From assembly GCF_900143015.1 (NCBI RefSeq), contig NZ_FSRT01000001.1, positions 744,001 to 808,000 on the forward strand: a stretch of 64,000 nucleotides of DNA. The letters run 5' to 3'. A model generated the notes under the pieces. That model was not told the origin of the DNA and searched no databases. It saw only the letters and a list, made by a program, of their open reading frames with translations. A program made the position numbers and the translations under genes. This document shows, one piece after another, positions 632-55,691 of the stretch (position 1 is its first letter; each line of letters opens with the position of its first letter). The DNA is from Fibrobacter sp. UWB11. Its GTDB lineage: Bacteria > Fibrobacterota > Fibrobacteria > Fibrobacterales > Fibrobacteraceae.

Positions 632-666
632 TTAGAGCTTAGAACCTAGATTTTAGAACTTAGAAG
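632..666. repeat. Degenerate heptad array, five 7-bp units
   Basis: Five consecutive units in exact 7-bp register: TTAGAGC, TTAGAAC, CTAGATT, TTAGAAC, TTAGAAG. The array begins five bases upstream of the mraY-like start codon. It belongs to a TTAGAAC sub-type of the heptad arrays found elsewhere in the window. Confidence 0.75.
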
Positions 667-2970: not shown

Positions 2971-3816
2971 ATGAAACTTCTTTTTACTGATTTGGACGGA
3001 ACGCTTCTTGATGATGCTAAGAACATCAGCGAAGCGGACATGGCTGCAATACACGCGATGATAGACGCGGGGCATAAGTTCGTGATGACGACTGGCCGCC
3101 CGCTTACAAGCGTGAAGCGAATTGCAAAAAAGTACGGCTTTTTGCAGCCGGGATATTTTTTGGTGAGCTTCAATGGCGGTTTGATTTACGATTGCGGAAC
3201 CGGCGAATCAATTTTGACACGGCGTATTTCTGTCGATCAGGTGAAGTTCATCATGGACGAGGCGCACAAGCGCGGAATGCATGCGCACACGTATGCGGGC
3301 GATTTGGTTGTGAGCGAATACGAAACGGAACAACTCAAAACGTATTGCCGCTTGATGCAAATGGATTATGTTGTTGTTGACGATATCCGTACATATTACA
3401 ATGGACTGGTCAATGCGAACGGCCCGATAAATGTTGTGATCAAGCCACCGATCAAGGTGAACGTCATTACGCCGTTTGAACATTCGAGTCTCGTGGATTT
3501 CCGTGCCGACATGCGGACTGTGACCGCAGGTAAGCTGTTTGATGTGTTCAGCAAGCCTGAAATGCTGGAATTCTCGCACATGCTTTCGAACAAAGGTGCT
3601 GCAGTGCGCTACATGGCGGATTTTTATCATGAGCCGATTGAAAATACGATAGCTGTGGGCGATGAAGAAAACGATTGTCCGATGATCGAAGCGGCTGGTG
3701 TTGGGGTGGCTATGGCGAATGCGTCACAGGCGGCAAAGGCTGTCGCCAATTACGTGACCGAGCACGACAACAATCATTCAGGAATTACCGAAGTTATCGA
3801 GAAATTTGTTTTGTAG
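2971..3816 (+). CDS. Cof/YidA-type HAD superfamily phosphatase
   Basis: A 281-residue cytoplasmic hydrolase. Motif I is FTDLDGTLL at the extreme N-terminus, with nucleophile D7 and acid/base D9. Motif II is the Thr-Thr-Gly-Arg stretch near residue 41, and motif IV is GDEENDCPMI near residue 230. The large inserted C2-type cap between motifs II and III is typical of the Cof subfamily, which acts on sugar phosphates and related small phosphoesters. The substrate is not predictable. No ribosome-binding site precedes the ATG; a TATATTTG element does. The stop codon lies inside the first unit of a heptad array. Confidence 0.88.
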   Translation: MKLLFTDLDGTLLDDAKNISEADMAAIHAMIDAGHKFVMTTGRPLTSVKRIAKKYGFLQPGYFLVSFNGGLIYDCGTGESILTRRISVDQVKFIMDEAHKRGMHAHTYAGDLVVSEYETEQLKTYCRLMQMDYVVVDDIRTYYNGLVNANGPINVVIKPPIKVNVITPFEHSSLVDFRADMRTVTAGKLFDVFSKPEMLEFSHMLSNKGAAVRYMADFYHEPIENTIAVGDEENDCPMIEAAGVGVAMANASQAAKAVANYVTEHDNNHSGITEVIEKFVL

Positions 3817-3846
3817 TCGTTAGTCAATGGTCGTTGGTCGCTAGTT
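3812..3846. repeat. Heptad array, forward type (TTAGTC), five units
   Basis: TGTAGTC, GTTAGTC, AATGGTC, GTTGGTC, GCTAGTT in strict 7-bp register. The first unit overlaps the TAG stop of the HAD gene. It forms the left arm of an inverted pair with 3877-3911. Confidence 0.8.
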
Positions 3847-3876
3847 GGAAAGGTCGCGACGAAGTCACCAGATTTA

Positions 3877-3911
3877 AACTAATAATTATTGACTAATAAC
3901 TAGTAACTAGC
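3877..3911. repeat. Heptad array, reverse type (GACTAAT), five units
   Basis: AACTAAT, AATTATT, GACTAAT, AACTAGT, AACTAGC in 7-bp register, the reverse complement pattern of the array at 3812-3846. The two arms flank about 30 bp and could fold as an imperfect hairpin between two convergent genes. Confidence 0.8.
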
Positions 3912-3921
3912 TATTTCGCTT

Positions 3922-5049
3922 TTACATTTCTTTCTTAAGTCTCGCGATAATCTCATCCACGTCTGTGAAGGCGCACATGGGAAGGCTCACGACTTTTTTG
4001 CTTGCTTCGACAGCGTTTGTATTGACTTTATCTTGAACAAGTTCTTTAAAGCAAGGCTGTTCGTGCAATGGAGCGGGGTAGTGGATGCAGTGCGGAATAC
4101 CTGCATTGTCGAGTTGCTTGATAAATGATTCGCTGTTGTCTGCCAGCACGGTGTATTGCGCGTAGGTGCTCGTGTTGCCACTTGCGATTTTTTGTGGTAC
4201 AATTTTTGCACCGTTGTCGTTAGCATCGTTGGCTCCTTTAGCTGCGTTGTTACGCTCTGCGAAAAACACGTCATATTTGCGGGCGTTTTCGCGGCGCGTG
4301 TTCAGCTCATCCTTGAAATGACGGAGTTTGACTCGCAGGACTGCTGCTTGGATAGCATCAAGTCGGCTGTTCAAACCGCAGATTTCGTGGACATAACGTG
4401 TATTGCTGCCGTGATTTGCAATGAGGCGGATTTTTTTTGCGAGTTCATCGTTTTGCGTGAAAAGTGCTCCGCCGTCACCGTAGCAGCCGAGCGGCTTTGC
4501 CGGGTAAAAACTCGTGATGGAAATGTCCCCGAATGTGCAGGCGTGAGCTCCATTTTGTGTGGCGCCGAACGCCTGTGCTGAGTCTTCGATAAGCCAAAGT
4601 CCGTGCCTGTGGGCTGTTTCCTTGATAATCTTATAATCTGGGCACTGGCCAAATAAGTTGACTGCGATAATCCCGCGCGTTTTTTCTCCGACTAATGCTT
4701 CAATTTCCTCGGGCGAAATCTGCAGTGTTTCGGAATCGATGTCTGCAAATTTCGGAATGCCGCCAAGCCTCATGACGCATTCGGCGGGTGCAATGAAGGT
4801 GAAATCTGGGACGATGACTTCGTCTCCCGGTTCAATTCCGAGAGCCATAAGAGCGATGGTCAATGCGTCGGTTCCGCTTCCGCAGGTGACAATGTGCTTT
4901 GTTCCAGTAAATGCTGCAAGTTCAGCTTCGAGCCCCTGAACGACCGGACCACCGATATAGCATCCGCTGTCCAGGACGTCTTGTTCTGCTTTTAAAAATT
5001 CAGATTTGTAGGCTTCGCGTTGCGCACGTACATTGATAAACGGAATCAT
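3922..5049 (-). CDS. DegT/DnrJ/EryC1/StrS family PLP-dependent sugar aminotransferase
   Basis: A 375-residue enzyme. This family transaminates keto-sugar nucleotides using pyridoxal phosphate. Visible landmarks are GSGTDAL (57-63, phosphate-binding), EDSAQAFGA with D156 stacking on the pyridine ring, and SFYPAKPLG with the Schiff-base K185, then the GDGG loop. The start at 5049 gives MIPFINVRAQ, the usual family N-terminus. The reading frame stays open to a TTG at 5091, but those extra residues are unlike the family and the ATG has TAAATT 7 nt upstream. It stands alone, without nucleotide-sugar dehydratases nearby, so its pathway (O-antigen, surface glycan or modified sugar) remains open. Confidence 0.9.
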   Translation of the reverse strand: MIPFINVRAQREAYKSEFLKAEQDVLDSGCYIGGPVVQGLEAELAAFTGTKHIVTCGSGTDALTIALMALGIEPGDEVIVPDFTFIAPAECVMRLGGIPKFADIDSETLQISPEEIEALVGEKTRGIIAVNLFGQCPDYKIIKETAHRHGLWLIEDSAQAFGATQNGAHACTFGDISITSFYPAKPLGCYGDGGALFTQNDELAKKIRLIANHGSNTRYVHEICGLNSRLDAIQAAVLRVKLRHFKDELNTRRENARKYDVFFAERNNAAKGANDANDNGAKIVPQKIASGNTSTYAQYTVLADNSESFIKQLDNAGIPHCIHYPAPLHEQPCFKELVQDKVNTNAVEASKKVVSLPMCAFTDVDEIIARLKKEM

Positions 5050-14130: not shown

Positions 14131-15207
14131 TCACGCACCAGCGGCTTCAAGTCTCGCTACATGACAGTAAGCCAACTCTTTCGTTTTTTCGTCACGGAGA
14201 TGCAGGCTGGAACCTTCGCAGTAGCGCCAGTATTTGCAGGTCTTGCAATCGCCAATTTTAGCCCAACTGCGGTCGCGCATCACTTGGTAGCGGTTCTGCC
14301 ATACGTCCCAAATATCATCCTTGTAGATGTTGCCTTGGATGTAGTCGCCGCGCAAGCTCGGGCAAGCCGAGATACTTCCGTCGCAGAGCACGGAAGAGAC
14401 GTTTACGCCGGCGCGGCAGAAGAACGGGTAGTTGCGGGCGTCTTTCTCGTAACTGCCGAGGAAGCCTTCGCAGCCGTAGTTCACGCTGATGACGTTCAGT
14501 TTTTTCACTTCGCGGATAAAGTCGAACACCTGGCGGAATTCCTGATTCGTGAGCTGGAACAGTGGATTGTCCTTGGCGCGGCCTTTCGGGAACACCGTTG
14601 CCACGCGCCAGCGCTTCACACCGATTTTCAAAAGCATGTCCAAGATTTTCGGGAGTTCCTTGAGGTTTTCGCGGTTCACACAGGTCATCACATCGAAGGT
14701 GAGGCCTTCGGTGTGGGCGGCCATGTCTATGGCACGCAGCGCTCGCTCAAAGCTATGCGGATCGCCACGGAAATGGTTGTGGCTTGCTTCGAGACCGTCA
14801 AGGCTGATGGTGAGCGAGCGGAGACCTGCGTTCAAGAGCTTGGTGTAGCGTTCCGGAGTCATTGCAAGACCGTTCGTGACCATGCCCCAGGGGTAGCCGC
14901 GCTTCTTGATTTCTTGACCACATTCTTCGAGGTCCGGACGCATCAAGGGTTCGCCGCCGGTAATCACCACGATAAAGTGTTTCGGATCGATGTGTGGGGC
15001 GAGCTTGTCGAGCACAGCCATAAAATCTTCGCGGGGCATGTCGGGGATGGCGTCCTTGACGCAGTCGCTACCGCAGTGCAAACAATGCAAATTGCAGCGG
15101 AGCGTACATTCCCAGAAAAAGTACGTGAGCGGGTGAGCCTTGATTTCGTTGTGACGATAAAGGCGATAAGCTTCGAGAGCGAGTTTCTTTTTAAGAGAGA
15201 GTTGCAT
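14131..15207 (-). CDS. Radical SAM/SPASM maturase of an rSAM/lipoprotein operon
   Basis: 358 residues. The radical SAM cluster motif is C38-xxx-C42-xx-C45 (inside ECTLRCNLHCLHCGSDC), followed by ITGGEPLMRPD (the GGEP motif) and TISLDG. The C-terminal third is a SPASM domain with the expected cysteines: FFCRAG, SACPSLRGD, then CKTCKYWRYCEGSSLH, which would bind auxiliary iron-sulfur clusters. SPASM enzymes of this type modify peptides or proteins. From memory the enzyme resembles the TIGRFAM class called rSAM/lipoprotein system. It lies 22 nt downstream of four cysteine-rich lipoprotein genes on the same strand, its presumed substrates. The reaction is unknown. No ribosome-binding site is present; TAAATT lies 9 nt before the ATG. 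Confidence 0.85.
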   Translation of the reverse strand: MQLSLKKKLALEAYRLYRHNEIKAHPLTYFFWECTLRCNLHCLHCGSDCVKDAIPDMPREDFMAVLDKLAPHIDPKHFIVVITGGEPLMRPDLEECGQEIKKRGYPWGMVTNGLAMTPERYTKLLNAGLRSLTISLDGLEASHNHFRGDPHSFERALRAIDMAAHTEGLTFDVMTCVNRENLKELPKILDMLLKIGVKRWRVATVFPKGRAKDNPLFQLTNQEFRQVFDFIREVKKLNVISVNYGCEGFLGSYEKDARNYPFFCRAGVNVSSVLCDGSISACPSLRGDYIQGNIYKDDIWDVWQNRYQVMRDRSWAKIGDCKTCKYWRYCEGSSLHLRDEKTKELAYCHVARLEAAGA

Positions 15208-15227
15208 AGGCTTTAGAATTTAGTTTT
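15207..15227. repeat. Short heptad array at the radical SAM start codon
   Basis: TAGGCTT, TAGAATT, TAGTTTT in 7-bp register, overlapping the start codon. On the minus strand it supplies TAAATT at 15222-15217, nine bases before the ATG. Confidence 0.4.
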
Positions 15228-15589: not shown

Positions 15590-15635
15590 GTTTAAGCTAT
15601 ATGTATTATGTTTTAGGGATTAGGAAAAATTTAAT

Positions 15636-38414: not shown

Positions 38415-38435
38415 TTTGGCCATTGGTCGTTGGTC
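38415..38435. repeat. Heptad array, forward type, three units
   Basis: TTTGGCC, ATTGGTC, GTTGGTC in 7-bp register, between endA and folC. Confidence 0.6.
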
Positions 38436-50541: not shown

Positions 50542-50568
50542 ACTATTGACTAATAACTAACGACTGAA
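50541..50568. repeat. Heptad array, reverse type, four units
   Basis: AACTATT, GACTAAT, AACTAAC, GACTGAA in exact 7-bp register. It fills the entire gap between the rapA stop and the proB ATG at 50571. Confidence 0.8.
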
Positions 50569-50570
50569 AA

Positions 50571-51710
50571 ATGAGTGAATTAAGAAAGAACATTTTAGAT
50601 GAAGCTCGCCGCGTGGTGGTGAAGATTGGTTCTCGCATTCTCGTGGATTCCGAGCGTGGTGGCGTTCGTACGCGATACATCCAGAAGCTCGCGGATTCCG
50701 TGGCTCGCTTGATGGATGCCGGCAAGGAAGTCGTCATTGTCACGAGTGGCGCTGTGGGTACGGGCATGGCTGAACTGGGTTACGCTCAAAAGCCGACCGT
50801 GCTTGCCGAAAAGCAGGCTTGCGCTGCCGTGGGTCAGATTGACCTCATGTACGCTTATCGCGAAATGTTCCGCTGGGTGCAACTCTCCGTCGGTCAGATT
50901 CTTTTGTCTGCAGAAGACTTCCGTGACCGTGCTCGTTACAAAAATTTGCAGAACACCATCAAGGCAATGCTTGCCAAAAAGATTGTTCCGATTATTAACG
51001 AGAACGACTCTTTGGCCGTTGCCGAAATCAAGGTGGGCGATAACGACAAGCTCTCAAGCGATGTGGCGCTCTTCCTTGATGCTGACTTGCTCCTCATCTT
51101 TACGGATGAAGACGGCTTGTTTGATGACAATCCGAAGAAGAATCCGAACGCCCGCTTGTTGAACTTTGTTCCTGAAATCACGCCTGCGATTTTGGCTTTG
51201 GCCGGAAAGCCCGGCGAGGCCGGATCCGCCGTCAGTACCGGCGGCATGAGGAGCAAACTCGAAGCCATTCGCAATGTGACGAAGAGCGGCGCGAATGCAT
51301 TCCTCGCTAGCGGTATGAAGGTGCTCCCGCATCAGGTGTTCTTTGAAAATGCAACAGGTACGTTGTTTGCAGGTTCCAAGAAAAAGCTCAATAGCCGTCA
51401 GCGCTGGCTGAGCTTTATCACAACTCCGCGTGGAAGCGTGATTGTCGATGAAGGCGGCGTGAAGGCTTTGCGTGAAAATCATTCGAGCTTGTTGCCGGTG
51501 GGCGTGATTGCGGTACAGAAGCATTTCGACAAGGGTGACTTGATTGAAGTCCAGGACGAAAAGAAGAATCCTGTGGCTCGCGGTGTCGCTGGTTTTGATA
51601 GCGAAACGCTTAAGCTTGTGCTCCGCAAGAAGACTGCTCAGGTGCACGAAATCTTGGGCAAGAATGTTCCGGATGAACTTATCCACAAGAACGACTTGGT
51701 TGTATTCTAA
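50571..51710 (+). CDS. proB: Glutamate 5-kinase
   Basis: 379 residues, first enzyme of proline synthesis. Amino-acid kinase domain: VVVKIGSRILVD, VTSGAVGTGMAELGY, IINENDSLAV, VGDNDKLSSDVALFLDADLLLIFTDEDGLFDDNP, and the GSAVSTGGMRSKLEA loop. Residues ~275-379 form the PUA domain typical of ProB (GSVIVDEGGVKAL, LLPVGVIAV, GVAGFDSE). No ribosome-binding site: the 29 bp upstream are a heptad array. No proA is adjacent in the window. Confidence 0.95.
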   Translation: MSELRKNILDEARRVVVKIGSRILVDSERGGVRTRYIQKLADSVARLMDAGKEVVIVTSGAVGTGMAELGYAQKPTVLAEKQACAAVGQIDLMYAYREMFRWVQLSVGQILLSAEDFRDRARYKNLQNTIKAMLAKKIVPIINENDSLAVAEIKVGDNDKLSSDVALFLDADLLLIFTDEDGLFDDNPKKNPNARLLNFVPEITPAILALAGKPGEAGSAVSTGGMRSKLEAIRNVTKSGANAFLASGMKVLPHQVFFENATGTLFAGSKKKLNSRQRWLSFITTPRGSVIVDEGGVKALRENHSSLLPVGVIAVQKHFDKGDLIEVQDEKKNPVARGVAGFDSETLKLVLRKKTAQVHEILGKNVPDELIHKNDLVVF

Positions 51711-52456: not shown

Positions 52457-55095
52457 TGGCCGTTACTCCGTTGATGCAGCAATATTACGAAATCAAGAAA
52501 GAAAATCCTGGCTGCATTTTGTTTTTCCGCATGGGCGACTTCTTTGAACTTTTTGAAGATGACGCTGTAATCGCCTCGAAAATTTTAGGTTTAACGCTCA
52601 CGAGCCGCAATAACGGCGCTTCCGGTGCAACGCCTTTGTGCGGGTTCCCGCACCATGCTGCCGAACGCTATGTGCCAAAGATGGTGGCTGCCGGCTACCG
52701 CATCGCCATTTGCGAACAGGTCGAAGACCCGAAACTGGCGAAAGGCATTGTCAAGCGCGACATTGTTGAAATCATCAGCGCCGGCACGGCGATGAACGAA
52801 GAAAACCTCAACGCAAAAGAGGCGAATTATCTTTGCGCTTATGTGCCTGCGACAAGCGATGATGGCAAGGGCGGAAACGGGGACGTAGCTGCGTTTGCGA
52901 TTGCCGATGTGACAACAGGTTACTTGGCCACGTGCCGTAGCAGTGTGCAGGCTTTTGAATGTGAATTCAGCCGCCGCATGCCCAAGGAAATTGTGATTCC
53001 CGAAGGGACGACAATCCCATCGGCGATTATGGACTTAATCAAGGCGGAAAACGTCTTGGTCACCGAACTTCCGGCGATTTTGTTTGCAGAAGACCAGGCA
53101 AAGGATGTGCTGTTTACGCACTTCAAGGTCGAAGCGCTCGATGGCCTTGGCTTGGATGGTCGCGTTTTTGAAACGTCCGTGACGGGCGCATTGCTCCAGT
53201 ATTTGATCAACCAGAAAAAGTCCGAACTGTCGCACTTTACGACGCTCGAGATCTTGAATCTGGACGATTACATGACGCTCGACCCGAGTACGCTCCGCAA
53301 CTTGGAACTCGTGCGTCCGCTGAATGCTGACGATTATTCCAGCACGCTTTGCTCGGTGCTCGATTTTACGGTGACGGCGATGGGTGGGCGTACGCTCAAG
53401 GACTGGGTGAGCCATCCGTTGATTGCTGTGGACCGCATCCGCGAACGCGAAGAAGCGGTGGGCGAGCTTGTCCAGAATCCTGTGGCGCTTGACGAACTCA
53501 AGGAATCGCTCACGTCGATTCTCGATATGGAACGCTTGATGGGCCGCGTCGGTAGCGGTCGTGCAAATGCGCGTGACCTCGCGGGAATGGGACGTTCTCT
53601 TTCGCAGGCATCAAAGGTCGCTGACGTTTTGGAAGGCTTGCATGCGCCGCTTTTTGAAGGGCTGCGTGAAACGCTGAATGCGGCAAAGGGCCGTGGCGAA
53701 GACTTGCTCAAGTACTTCAATGATGACTTGCCGATGACGGTGCGCGAAGGCGGAATGATCCACCCGGGTGCAAGTGCAGAACTTGATGCAATGAACGAGG
53801 ACATCAAGGAACGTCGTGAATGGATTGCTTCGTTGGAAGGCCGTGAACGCGAACGTCTTGGAATCCCGTCTCTCAAAGTCGGTTACAACCGCGTGTTCGG
53901 TTATTACATCGAAATCACGAAGGCGCAGATGGCAAAGGCCACGCAGCCGATTCCGGATGAGTATATCCGCAAGCAGACAACGGTGAACGGCGAACGCTAT
54001 ATCACGCCGGAAATGAAGGAATGCGAATCCGTCATCAGCAATGCCGAAGTCAACATCCATGCGCTGGAATACAAGATTTTCTGCGAACTTCGCGAACGCG
54101 TGAACAGCTGGCGCGCCGAGCTCCAGGGCATTGCCGATGCGATTGCCCGAGTCGATAGCTTGTACAGCTTTGCTCGTGCGGCCCGCAAGTACAATTACGT
54201 TTGCCCTGAAGTTTTTGAAGGGACGGGTATTGAAATTCGCGGCGGTTTCCATCCGGTGATTGTCGCGGTGAATCCTGATTTGAACTTTGTCCCGAACGAT
54301 GTGACGCTCTCGCCGGACGGTACGCGACTGATGCTCATCACCGGCCCGAACATGGCCGGCAAATCGACGTACTTGCGCCAGACGGGGCTCATTGTGCTCA
54401 TGGCGCAGATTGGCTGCTTTGTGCCTGCCGAAAGTGCGCGCATTGGTGTGGTGGACCGCATCTTTACGCGTGTGGGCGCAAGCGACCGCTTGAGCCGAGG
54501 TCTCAGTACGTTCATGGTCGAGATGATCGAAACGGCGAACATTTTGCGCAATGCAACGCCGCATAGCCTTGTGCTGCTCGATGAAATCGGTCGCGGTACG
54601 AGTACGTTTGACGGTCTCTCAATTGCGTGGGCGATTGTCGAGACTCTCCACAGCGAGCCTGCCCGCATGGCGCTTACGCTGTTTGCAACGCACTATCACG
54701 AATTGACGGGGCTTGTAGAATCGTTGGAACATGCCGGAAACTTCCAGGTCGCTGTACAGGAAAAGGGCGACAAGCTTACGTTTTTGCACAAGATTCTCGA
54801 AGGCGCTTGCGATTCGAGCTATGGTATTCACGTGGCCGAGATGGCGGGGCTCCCACCTAACGTGGTGCGCCGAGCTCGCAAGATTTTGCTCCGTTTGGAA
54901 AAGCAGAAGATTGACCCGAGCGACGAGGCGCAAAACAAGAAAATCAAGGCGCAGCCGCAGATGGACTTGTTTGCACCGCCAGACGAGAACACGCTTTTGC
55001 TCAAGGATGAAATTCGCAGGCTCAAGCCCGAGGAAATGACTCCGATGCAAGCGCTGCAACGCCTCATGGACCTGAAGGAAAATTACGGGAAATAG
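52456..55095 (+). CDS. mutS: DNA mismatch repair protein MutS
   Basis: 879 residues, full length. Domain I starts TPLMQQYYEIKKENPGCILFFRMGDFFELF, with the mismatch-reading Phe-x-Glu element near residues 30-35. Walker A is TGPNMAGKSTYLRQ (about 629-642), Walker B LLDEIGRGTSTFDG (about 706-719), then FATHYHELTGL. The C-terminal ~60 residues are the short linker and dimerisation tail. It recognises mismatches and recruits MutL. The start overlaps the scpB stop; the gap behind it holds an inverted pair of heptad arrays. Confidence 0.97.
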   Translation: MAVTPLMQQYYEIKKENPGCILFFRMGDFFELFEDDAVIASKILGLTLTSRNNGASGATPLCGFPHHAAERYVPKMVAAGYRIAICEQVEDPKLAKGIVKRDIVEIISAGTAMNEENLNAKEANYLCAYVPATSDDGKGGNGDVAAFAIADVTTGYLATCRSSVQAFECEFSRRMPKEIVIPEGTTIPSAIMDLIKAENVLVTELPAILFAEDQAKDVLFTHFKVEALDGLGLDGRVFETSVTGALLQYLINQKKSELSHFTTLEILNLDDYMTLDPSTLRNLELVRPLNADDYSSTLCSVLDFTVTAMGGRTLKDWVSHPLIAVDRIREREEAVGELVQNPVALDELKESLTSILDMERLMGRVGSGRANARDLAGMGRSLSQASKVADVLEGLHAPLFEGLRETLNAAKGRGEDLLKYFNDDLPMTVREGGMIHPGASAELDAMNEDIKERREWIASLEGRERERLGIPSLKVGYNRVFGYYIEITKAQMAKATQPIPDEYIRKQTTVNGERYITPEMKECESVISNAEVNIHALEYKIFCELRERVNSWRAELQGIADAIARVDSLYSFARAARKYNYVCPEVFEGTGIEIRGGFHPVIVAVNPDLNFVPNDVTLSPDGTRLMLITGPNMAGKSTYLRQTGLIVLMAQIGCFVPAESARIGVVDRIFTRVGASDRLSRGLSTFMVEMIETANILRNATPHSLVLLDEIGRGTSTFDGLSIAWAIVETLHSEPARMALTLFATHYHELTGLVESLEHAGNFQVAVQEKGDKLTFLHKILEGACDSSYGIHVAEMAGLPPNVVRRARKILLRLEKQKIDPSDEAQNKKIKAQPQMDLFAPPDENTLLLKDEIRRLKPEEMTPMQALQRLMDLKENYGK

Positions 55096-55125
55096 CAATT
55101 AGTCAATAGTCAATGGTCTTTAGAT
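55091..55125. repeat. Heptad array, forward type, five units
   Basis: AATAGCA, ATTAGTC, AATAGTC, AATGGTC, TTTAGAT in 7-bp register. The first unit overlaps the mutS stop codon. It is the left arm of an inverted pair with 55151-55185. Confidence 0.8.
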
Positions 55126-55150
55126 AAATGCGGCGAAACTGCAATAATAA

Positions 55151-55185
55151 AACTACTGACTAATGACTAAGAACTAACAACTAAA
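55151..55185. repeat. Heptad array, reverse type, five units
   Basis: AACTACT, GACTAAT, GACTAAG, AACTAAC, AACTAAA in exact 7-bp register, ending 2 nt before the ATG of the HD gene. The arm spacing to 55125 is 25 bp. Confidence 0.85.
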
Positions 55186-55187
55186 AT

Positions 55188-55691
55188 ATGATAGATTTCG
55201 CGGCTTTAATGAACTTTGCTTTTGAGAATCGGCTCTACGAGTCCGAGGTTCATGGCATTGAGCATTGGCATCAGGTGGAGTACAATGGGCTCCTCTTGGC
55301 GAAAAAGACTGGCGCCGACATTGATGTGGTGCGCCTGTTTGCTATTTTCCATGATTCGCAGCGTTTGGATGATGCGTACGACCGTGAACATGGCGCACGT
55401 GGTGCAGAATTCGCAAAGCTCTGCCGTGAAGAAAAACGCTTTGAGCTGGACGATGAACGCTTTGGCTGGCTGTATGATGCGTGCCGCCTCCATACGATTC
55501 AACCGCGTACGGGAAACATTACGATAGACACTTGCTTTGATGCTGATCGCTTGGATTTGGGCCGTGTCGGGTTTCCGCTGGATCCCAAGAAAATGGCGAC
55601 GGAATGGGGTGCAAAAATAGCCCAGAAGTCTCTCACTTCGGGCTATTCCGTATTCCACATGCGCGAATGGATCCGCAAATTGGTGCTTTAA
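55188..55691 (+). CDS. HD-like small hydrolase
   Basis: 167 residues. Spaced His/Asp residues fit a degenerate HD fold: HGIEHWHQVEYNGLLLA near residue 22, IFHDSQRLDDAYDREHG near 53 (the HD pair), a later LHTIQPRT, and DADRLDLGRVGFPLDPKKM. HD proteins are metal-dependent phosphohydrolases; the substrate here is unknown. The length fits small stand-alone HD proteins. No ribosome-binding site is present; the heptad array ends 2 nt before the ATG. Confidence 0.75.
   Translation: MIDFAALMNFAFENRLYESEVHGIEHWHQVEYNGLLLAKKTGADIDVVRLFAIFHDSQRLDDAYDREHGARGAEFAKLCREEKRFELDDERFGWLYDACRLHTIQPRTGNITIDTCFDADRLDLGRVGFPLDPKKMATEWGAKIAQKSLTSGYSVFHMREWIRKLVL

Follow-up and report, generated by a model that had tools for sequence, protein, structure and literature searches.

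Heptad Repeat Arrays in Fibrobacter Gene Junctions as Probable Inverted Arms of Small S23/IVP-Linked Mobile-Type Elements

Heptad arrays in the window

The window analyzed here is a 64,000-nucleotide stretch of the Fibrobacter sp. UWB11 genome (contig NZ_FSRT01000001.1, positions 744,001 to 808,000), in which arrays of 7-bp units occupy several junctions between genes. The relevant features are as follows.

2971–3816, forward strand: HAD-family gene, with its stop codon inside the first heptad unit
3814–3845, forward strand: left heptad arm (TAGTCGT TAGTCAA TGGTCGT TGGTCGC TAGT); the first TAG is the HAD gene stop
3846–3876, no strand: spacer with hairpin core GTCGCGACGAAGTC, a variant of the GCNNC-loop-GNNGC core family
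3877–3910, reverse strand: right heptad arm (AACTAAT AATTATT GACTAAT AACTAGT AACTAG), the left-arm unit in inverted copy
3922–5049, reverse strand: neighbor gene convergent to the HAD gene, its 3' end 12 bp from the right arm
55090–55118, forward strand: second element, left heptad arm, overlapping the mutS stop
55119–55151, no strand: second element, spacer with hairpin core (GCGGC GAAA CTGC, ATAATA)
55152–55184, reverse strand: second element, right heptad arm, ending 3 bp short of the start codon ATG at 55188
50542–50574, reverse strand: lone right-type arm, a remnant, in a 29-bp gap between two forward-strand genes
38415–38435, forward strand: left-arm remnant; at this position the relative G129 carries an insert of 94 bp of heptads
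632–665, forward strand: lone arm of the TAGAACT family
15600–15624, forward strand: weak lone arm of TAGG type (score 10)

An earlier note on this DNA had described two facing five-unit arrays at 3812–3911, the first of them taking in the HAD stop codon, and a recurrence of the inverted pair at 55091–55185. The former is correctly placed, and the latter is found at the mutS positions given above. Among the lone arrays it proposed, those at 632–665 and 50542–50574 hold, that at 38415–38435 is a remnant, and a candidate at 15207–15227 falls below threshold, the arm at 15600–15624 lying just above it. The GTTAGTC/GACTAAT unit is likewise present, but it is one of about ten unit families that share the 7-bp period and are matched within each element. 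Placement between convergent genes, as described there, does not generalize: the majority of paired arrays have codirectional genes on either side. As a minor point, at 3922–3924 and in homologues the C-terminus of the convergent neighbor varies by species with where the junction sequence supplies a stop.

An excess of period 7 confined to gaps

The period was examined in a sample of 1.13 Mb (30%), taken in stretches, of the 3.76-Mb genome to which the window belongs (G000). Genes in the sample were called with a simple hexamer model, runs of matches were scored at each lag, and segments scoring at least 12 were counted. At lag 7, all 73 segments lay in gaps rather than coding sequence. The other lags from 4 to 28 yielded 0–7 gap segments apiece, save for 14 and 21 (both multiples of 7). 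Multiples aside, gap arrays of period 7 exceed those of every other period roughly tenfold. Relatives of G000 repeat the pattern, with 97 segments at lag 7 and 0–5 at other lags, again save 14 and 21. The arrays therefore neither match a random expectation nor vary freely in period, and a genome-wide scan for the heptad pattern TNNTTAGTCNNTAGTC returned 24 sites against none in a reversed control. Whole-gap autocorrelation was abandoned as an array detector, its signal being too dilute. Stop codons in all frames were discarded as the cause of the period, since the AATTCGG and CCTCGTA families contain no stop codon.

Anatomy of the elements

The arms of an element are matched in unit type. Inverted similarity between arms is 0.65 within the same gap and 0.51 between different loci (p=6e-9), and the usual order in G000 places a TTAGT-type arm first and an ACTAA-type arm second. 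Unit families include TTAGTC, TTAGGT, GTAGGA, and ATTGAT, each paired across both arms, and the paired arms usually sit flush with stop and start codons. Five is the modal number of units per arm (47 of the 98 arms in the G000 sample, under a detection that needs about three or more units and hence cuts the low end of the distribution), as it is beside S23 genes, which are described below.

In the simplest copies a spacer of approximately 30 bp separates the arms, often with the hairpin ATAAT-C-[GCNNC loop GNNGC]-C. The stem of this core varies on both strands together while its frame is unchanged, that is, it covaries. The core pattern occurs 13 times in G000 and not at all in the reversed control; the majority of Fibrobacter species have it, and a genome from a different family has five copies, three of which were seen with heptad arms. 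One and the same core is accompanied by heptads that differ by genome and family: TTAGTCA, TTAGGTT, GTAGGAA, ATTGATA, TTATGAA, GTGGTTA, and CCAGTGA. In TTAGGT-type miniatures at L105:13179–13297 and L068:17414–17538 the spacer is longer and holds two hairpins, of TGCACTTCGTGCA and GGCGAAGCC type. Separately, a lone array of 378 bp (L014:12081–12458) comprises about 54 TAGAACT units, compared with 3 in L013 and about 4.5 in L016.

Paired elements give stable folds, although a perfect hairpin of the two arms was rejected: pairing at the variable positions scored 273 compared with 286 ± 5 for shuffled units, if anything worse. As the free positions do not pair beyond shuffled units, the arms look like repeated sites rather than a perfect stem.

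An S23/IVP gene between the arms

One G000 element has a spacer of 378 bp that encodes a 128-residue protein. This protein matches the four helix bundle family TIGR02436 (E 1e-40), and PF05635, the 23S rRNA IVS protein, matches the same locus; a weak match to Avd (NF033474, E 7.6e-5) lies below the curated cut-off of that model. PF05635 is found in 53 of 80 Fibrobacter genomes, with up to four copies in each. At least one heptad arm adjoins all 31 Fibrobacter S23 loci, and both arms adjoin 27 of them, in contrast to 21 of 1,782 other genes (Fisher p=9e-43; many of the 31 loci are orthologous, and hence not independent). G000 itself has two S23 genes, one with TTAGTC arms and the other with TTAGGT arms. 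These are the two commonest families of the genome, whose profiles are the best fit for 66 of the 98 sampled arms. The copies in the window have no S23 gene, and a PF05635 search of the relatives G129 and G130 found none either, though both keep TTAGTC elements.

Turnover at orthologous junctions

Comparison of gap positions among relatives, as the earlier note had advised, reveals the same junctions filled by differing families or empty. The gap 3' of mutS (window 55090–55184) is instructive, as it can be followed among species in which the C-terminus of MutS is 97–100% identical. A TTAGTC element lies there in G000, G129, and G130; a TTAGGT element in G102, G001, and G150; a GTGGTTA element in five species; and a GAGGTAT-type element in G142 and G145, while in G014 the gap is empty and the genes overlap as TAATG. 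The copy in G129 is exactly one 7-bp unit shorter, and the claim that the register never slips does not survive if it is taken to mean unit number. At the junction of a DEAD-helicase gene and map, G000 and G001 have an S23-bearing element of 442 bp, and other species have miniatures of other families or a gap of 1–2 bp. The HAD junction and one further gene pair display a similar pattern of empty and filled sites.

Orthologous junctions that are empty, or that hold other families, imply that the arrays behave like insertions. Elements thus appear and vanish whole and occupy tight junctions, which accounts for the contact of arms with stop and start codons. The S23 gene and its heptad arms form one association, and junctions gain or lose the element as a unit. 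Junction alignments with G129 and G130 are 76–95% identical with inexact ends, a divergence at which no target-site duplication can be resolved.

S23 loci beyond Fibrobacter

Translated searches (tblastn) of plasmids located S23 genes mostly in Nostoc, Calothrix, Trichormus, and other cyanobacteria, and also in Azospirillum, Gemmatirosa, and Riemerella. Repeats of equal period flank both sides of 21 of 25 plasmid S23 loci (15 of 7 bp, 6 of 8 bp) and of 17 of 26 loci in other Fibrobacterota (12 of 7 bp, 5 of 8 bp), whereas control windows gave period 7 in 18 of 948 and period 8 in 6 of 948. The upstream arm resembles the reverse complement of the downstream arm (0.75) more than its direct sequence (0.44), the inverted comparison being the better in 51 of 56 cases. 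Unit similarity also rises with S23 protein identity among 55 representatives (Mantel r=0.24, reached in 0 of 5,000 permutations). For example, CAGGAGA from a Fibrobacterota genome and AGGAGTC from Aulosira accompany proteins that are 73% identical.

Period-8 arrays lie on both sides of the S23 gene at L257, L261, L290, L293, L294, L280, L281, and L273. A clean division of the protein tree by period 7 or 8 was rejected, as well-supported branches force at least four switches; clustering on the tree is weak. Long clean arrays adjoin some plasmid S23 genes. No S23 match was found in the phage records searched, and one was found in viral contigs.

Relation to known repeats and elements

The closest known counterpart is the rRNA intervening sequence (IVS), an S23 open reading frame between complementary ends inside rRNA genes that is regarded as selfish (PMC4990558). 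Like the 23S rRNA IVSs of Coxiella and Leptospira, which combine an S23/IVP open reading frame and complementary ends in approximately 430–440 bp, full-length Fibrobacter copies encode S23 and have arms that are complementary in unit type, though imperfectly. Unlike them, the Fibrobacter elements lie between protein genes rather than within 16S or 23S rRNA, from which RNase III excises IVSs, have 7-bp tandem arms, and include many miniatures that lack the reading frame.

Heptad elements share with MITEs and REP/BIME sequences a short, inverted, noncoding, and multicopy form, and they display the multiple copies, terminal inverted repeats, and insertion polymorphism expected of MITEs; they differ in arms that are tandem arrays of changeable sequence. 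A REP/RAYT identity was rejected, consistent with its earlier dismissal, as the Y1 transposase (PF01797) has no match in G000. Diversity-generating retroelements were set aside in the same manner: their Avd protein is similar in sequence to S23, but the reverse transcriptase PF00078 has no match in G000 (18 of 80 genomes across the genus have one). The search of G000 for a transposase partner covered these two families. The earlier conclusion that coding sequence, CRISPR, and ordinary microsatellites fail to account for the arrays also stands. Lag-7 segments are absent from coding sequence, and the arms possess an orientation, matched inverted units, and a link to the S23 gene, against a microsatellite (SSR) identity. 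A further parallel is offered by the omega-repressor heptads of pSM19035, unspaced tandem 7-bp units in direct and inverted orientation, which are bound by a ribbon-helix-helix protein and have a fixed heptad.

Heptamer repeats as such are well documented. Calothrix STRR, Nostoc GGGGA(C/T)T, and Xanthomonas GGGAATC repeats, the last with 70–75 convergent pairs, are intergenic like ours and near a neighboring open reading frame (PMC4692102), but they are described as of unknown origin or as G-quadruplexes, with no protein linked to them in the literature found. TAACTGA repeats of Beggiatoaceae form intergenic arrays near start codons, and occur also in Cyanobacteria and Bacteroidetes; they differ in having a single fixed unit, almost only as direct repeats, and S23 was not considered (PMC4679880).

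Proposed mechanism and competing explanations

Very probably, the heptad arrays are the inverted arms of small mobile-type elements linked to S23/IVP proteins (PF05635/TIGR02436), and those in the window are gene-less miniatures and remnants. They are best read as S23-dependent selfish elements. The full-length form would be about 440 bp, arm–S23 gene–arm, lying flush in the junction of adjacent genes; the miniature would consist of two arms around a short hairpin core. We infer that S23 recognizes the heptads. The search for a binding protein with a 7-bp period, urged by the earlier note, has thus yielded a family associated with the arrays, S23 being the predicted binder. Structures of relatives (2gsc, 2rld) have five chains per entry, and the Xanthomonas S23 protein is a homopentameric toroid (PMC4990558). 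An S23 ring, homopentameric as in the solved relative, might bind a single arm of some five units, each subunit taking one heptad, either on double-stranded DNA or within the transcript. Such binding could mark the element, so that host enzymes help to copy it or to insert it where genes lie close together, while slippage would add and remove heptad units. S23 is, to our knowledge, not a known transposase.

Slippage might instead be the entire cause. A polymerase that favors 7-bp slippage could expand any noncoding 7-mer, as Mrazek and co-workers have suggested (cited in PMC4692102 and PMC4679880), and the inversion and S23 neighbors would be incidental. The one-unit indel between mutS-site orthologues, TAGAACT copy numbers from 3 to 54 across species, and the extended clean arrays next to some S23 genes on plasmids are all in keeping with it. 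Yet it leaves unexplained the inverted matched arms, the conserved core, the flush insertion in junctions of 0–3 bp, and the S23 genes between arms in several phyla, and sits poorly with the 8-bp arrays on both sides of some S23 loci. We consider slippage as sole cause very unlikely, although it probably sets copy number.

Host selection for transcription terminators or hairpins that stabilize 3' ends, with the paired arms folding into an extended stem 3' of the stop codon, is highly improbable. It accords with the stable folds and the position of paired elements at stop codons. Canonical terminators are also underrepresented in gaps with paired arms, both codirectional (1/15 compared with 132/271, p=0.001) and convergent (3/7 compared with 55/65, p=0.02), which we attribute to the entry of elements into tight junctions. 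Elements equally abut start codons, however, and interrupt close junctions at which relatives have no element; the arms show no pairing at their variable positions, no T tract is seen 3' of the stem, and the S23 gene is left unexplained. That a host protein, regulatory or nucleoid-associated, binds the arrays with a 7-bp period, akin to the omega heptads, and that S23 regulates expression without mobility, likewise strikes us as hardly credible: the conserved core and free positions of each unit, and its tracking of the S23 protein, would suit such sites, but junctions with an identical flanking protein differ between species in element family, or are empty.

Implications for bacterial heptamer repeats

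Reading the arrays as arms of S23-linked elements joins two puzzles. Heptamers are unusually frequent among the simple repeats of many bacteria, according to 2007 work cited in PMC4692102, an excess that the literature consulted ascribes to polymerase slippage, and S23 proteins, as PMC4990558 states, lack a known function; here, heptamer repeats form arms around S23 genes in several phyla, and the repeat sequence follows the protein. S23 thereby gains a testable DNA or RNA target, and heptamer repeats a testable origin. This pairing of gene and repeat, recurring in cyanobacteria and other phyla, may lie behind the commonness of 7-base repeats in bacteria. In the open-access literature we found no publication that ties heptamer repeats to S23, though earlier notice elsewhere is possible, and the paper on the Fibrobacter S85 genome is silent on repeats of this kind. 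Judged from sequence, the elements would extend the known S23-bearing selfish elements, with a larger claim to follow if binding and movement are demonstrated.

More tentatively, and a little short of an even chance in our estimation, S23/IVP proteins could run a general class of transposase-less mobile elements. The pentamer would read five units of 7 bp (or 8 bp) in each arm, the heptad would coevolve with the protein, and most bacterial heptamer families—cyanobacterial STRR, Xanthomonas GGGAATC, and Beggiatoa TAACTGA—would be their traces.

Two observations on plasmid loci may be added. On plasmids of Pseudanabaena, Anabaena 90, and Picosynechococcus (L245, L255, and L247), S23 lies within CRISPR-cas operons, in the orders cas6-S23-cas4 and cas10-S23-cmr3. 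On two related Nostoc plasmids (L250 and L296), the S23 element is found on opposite sides of the small gene WP_104899637.
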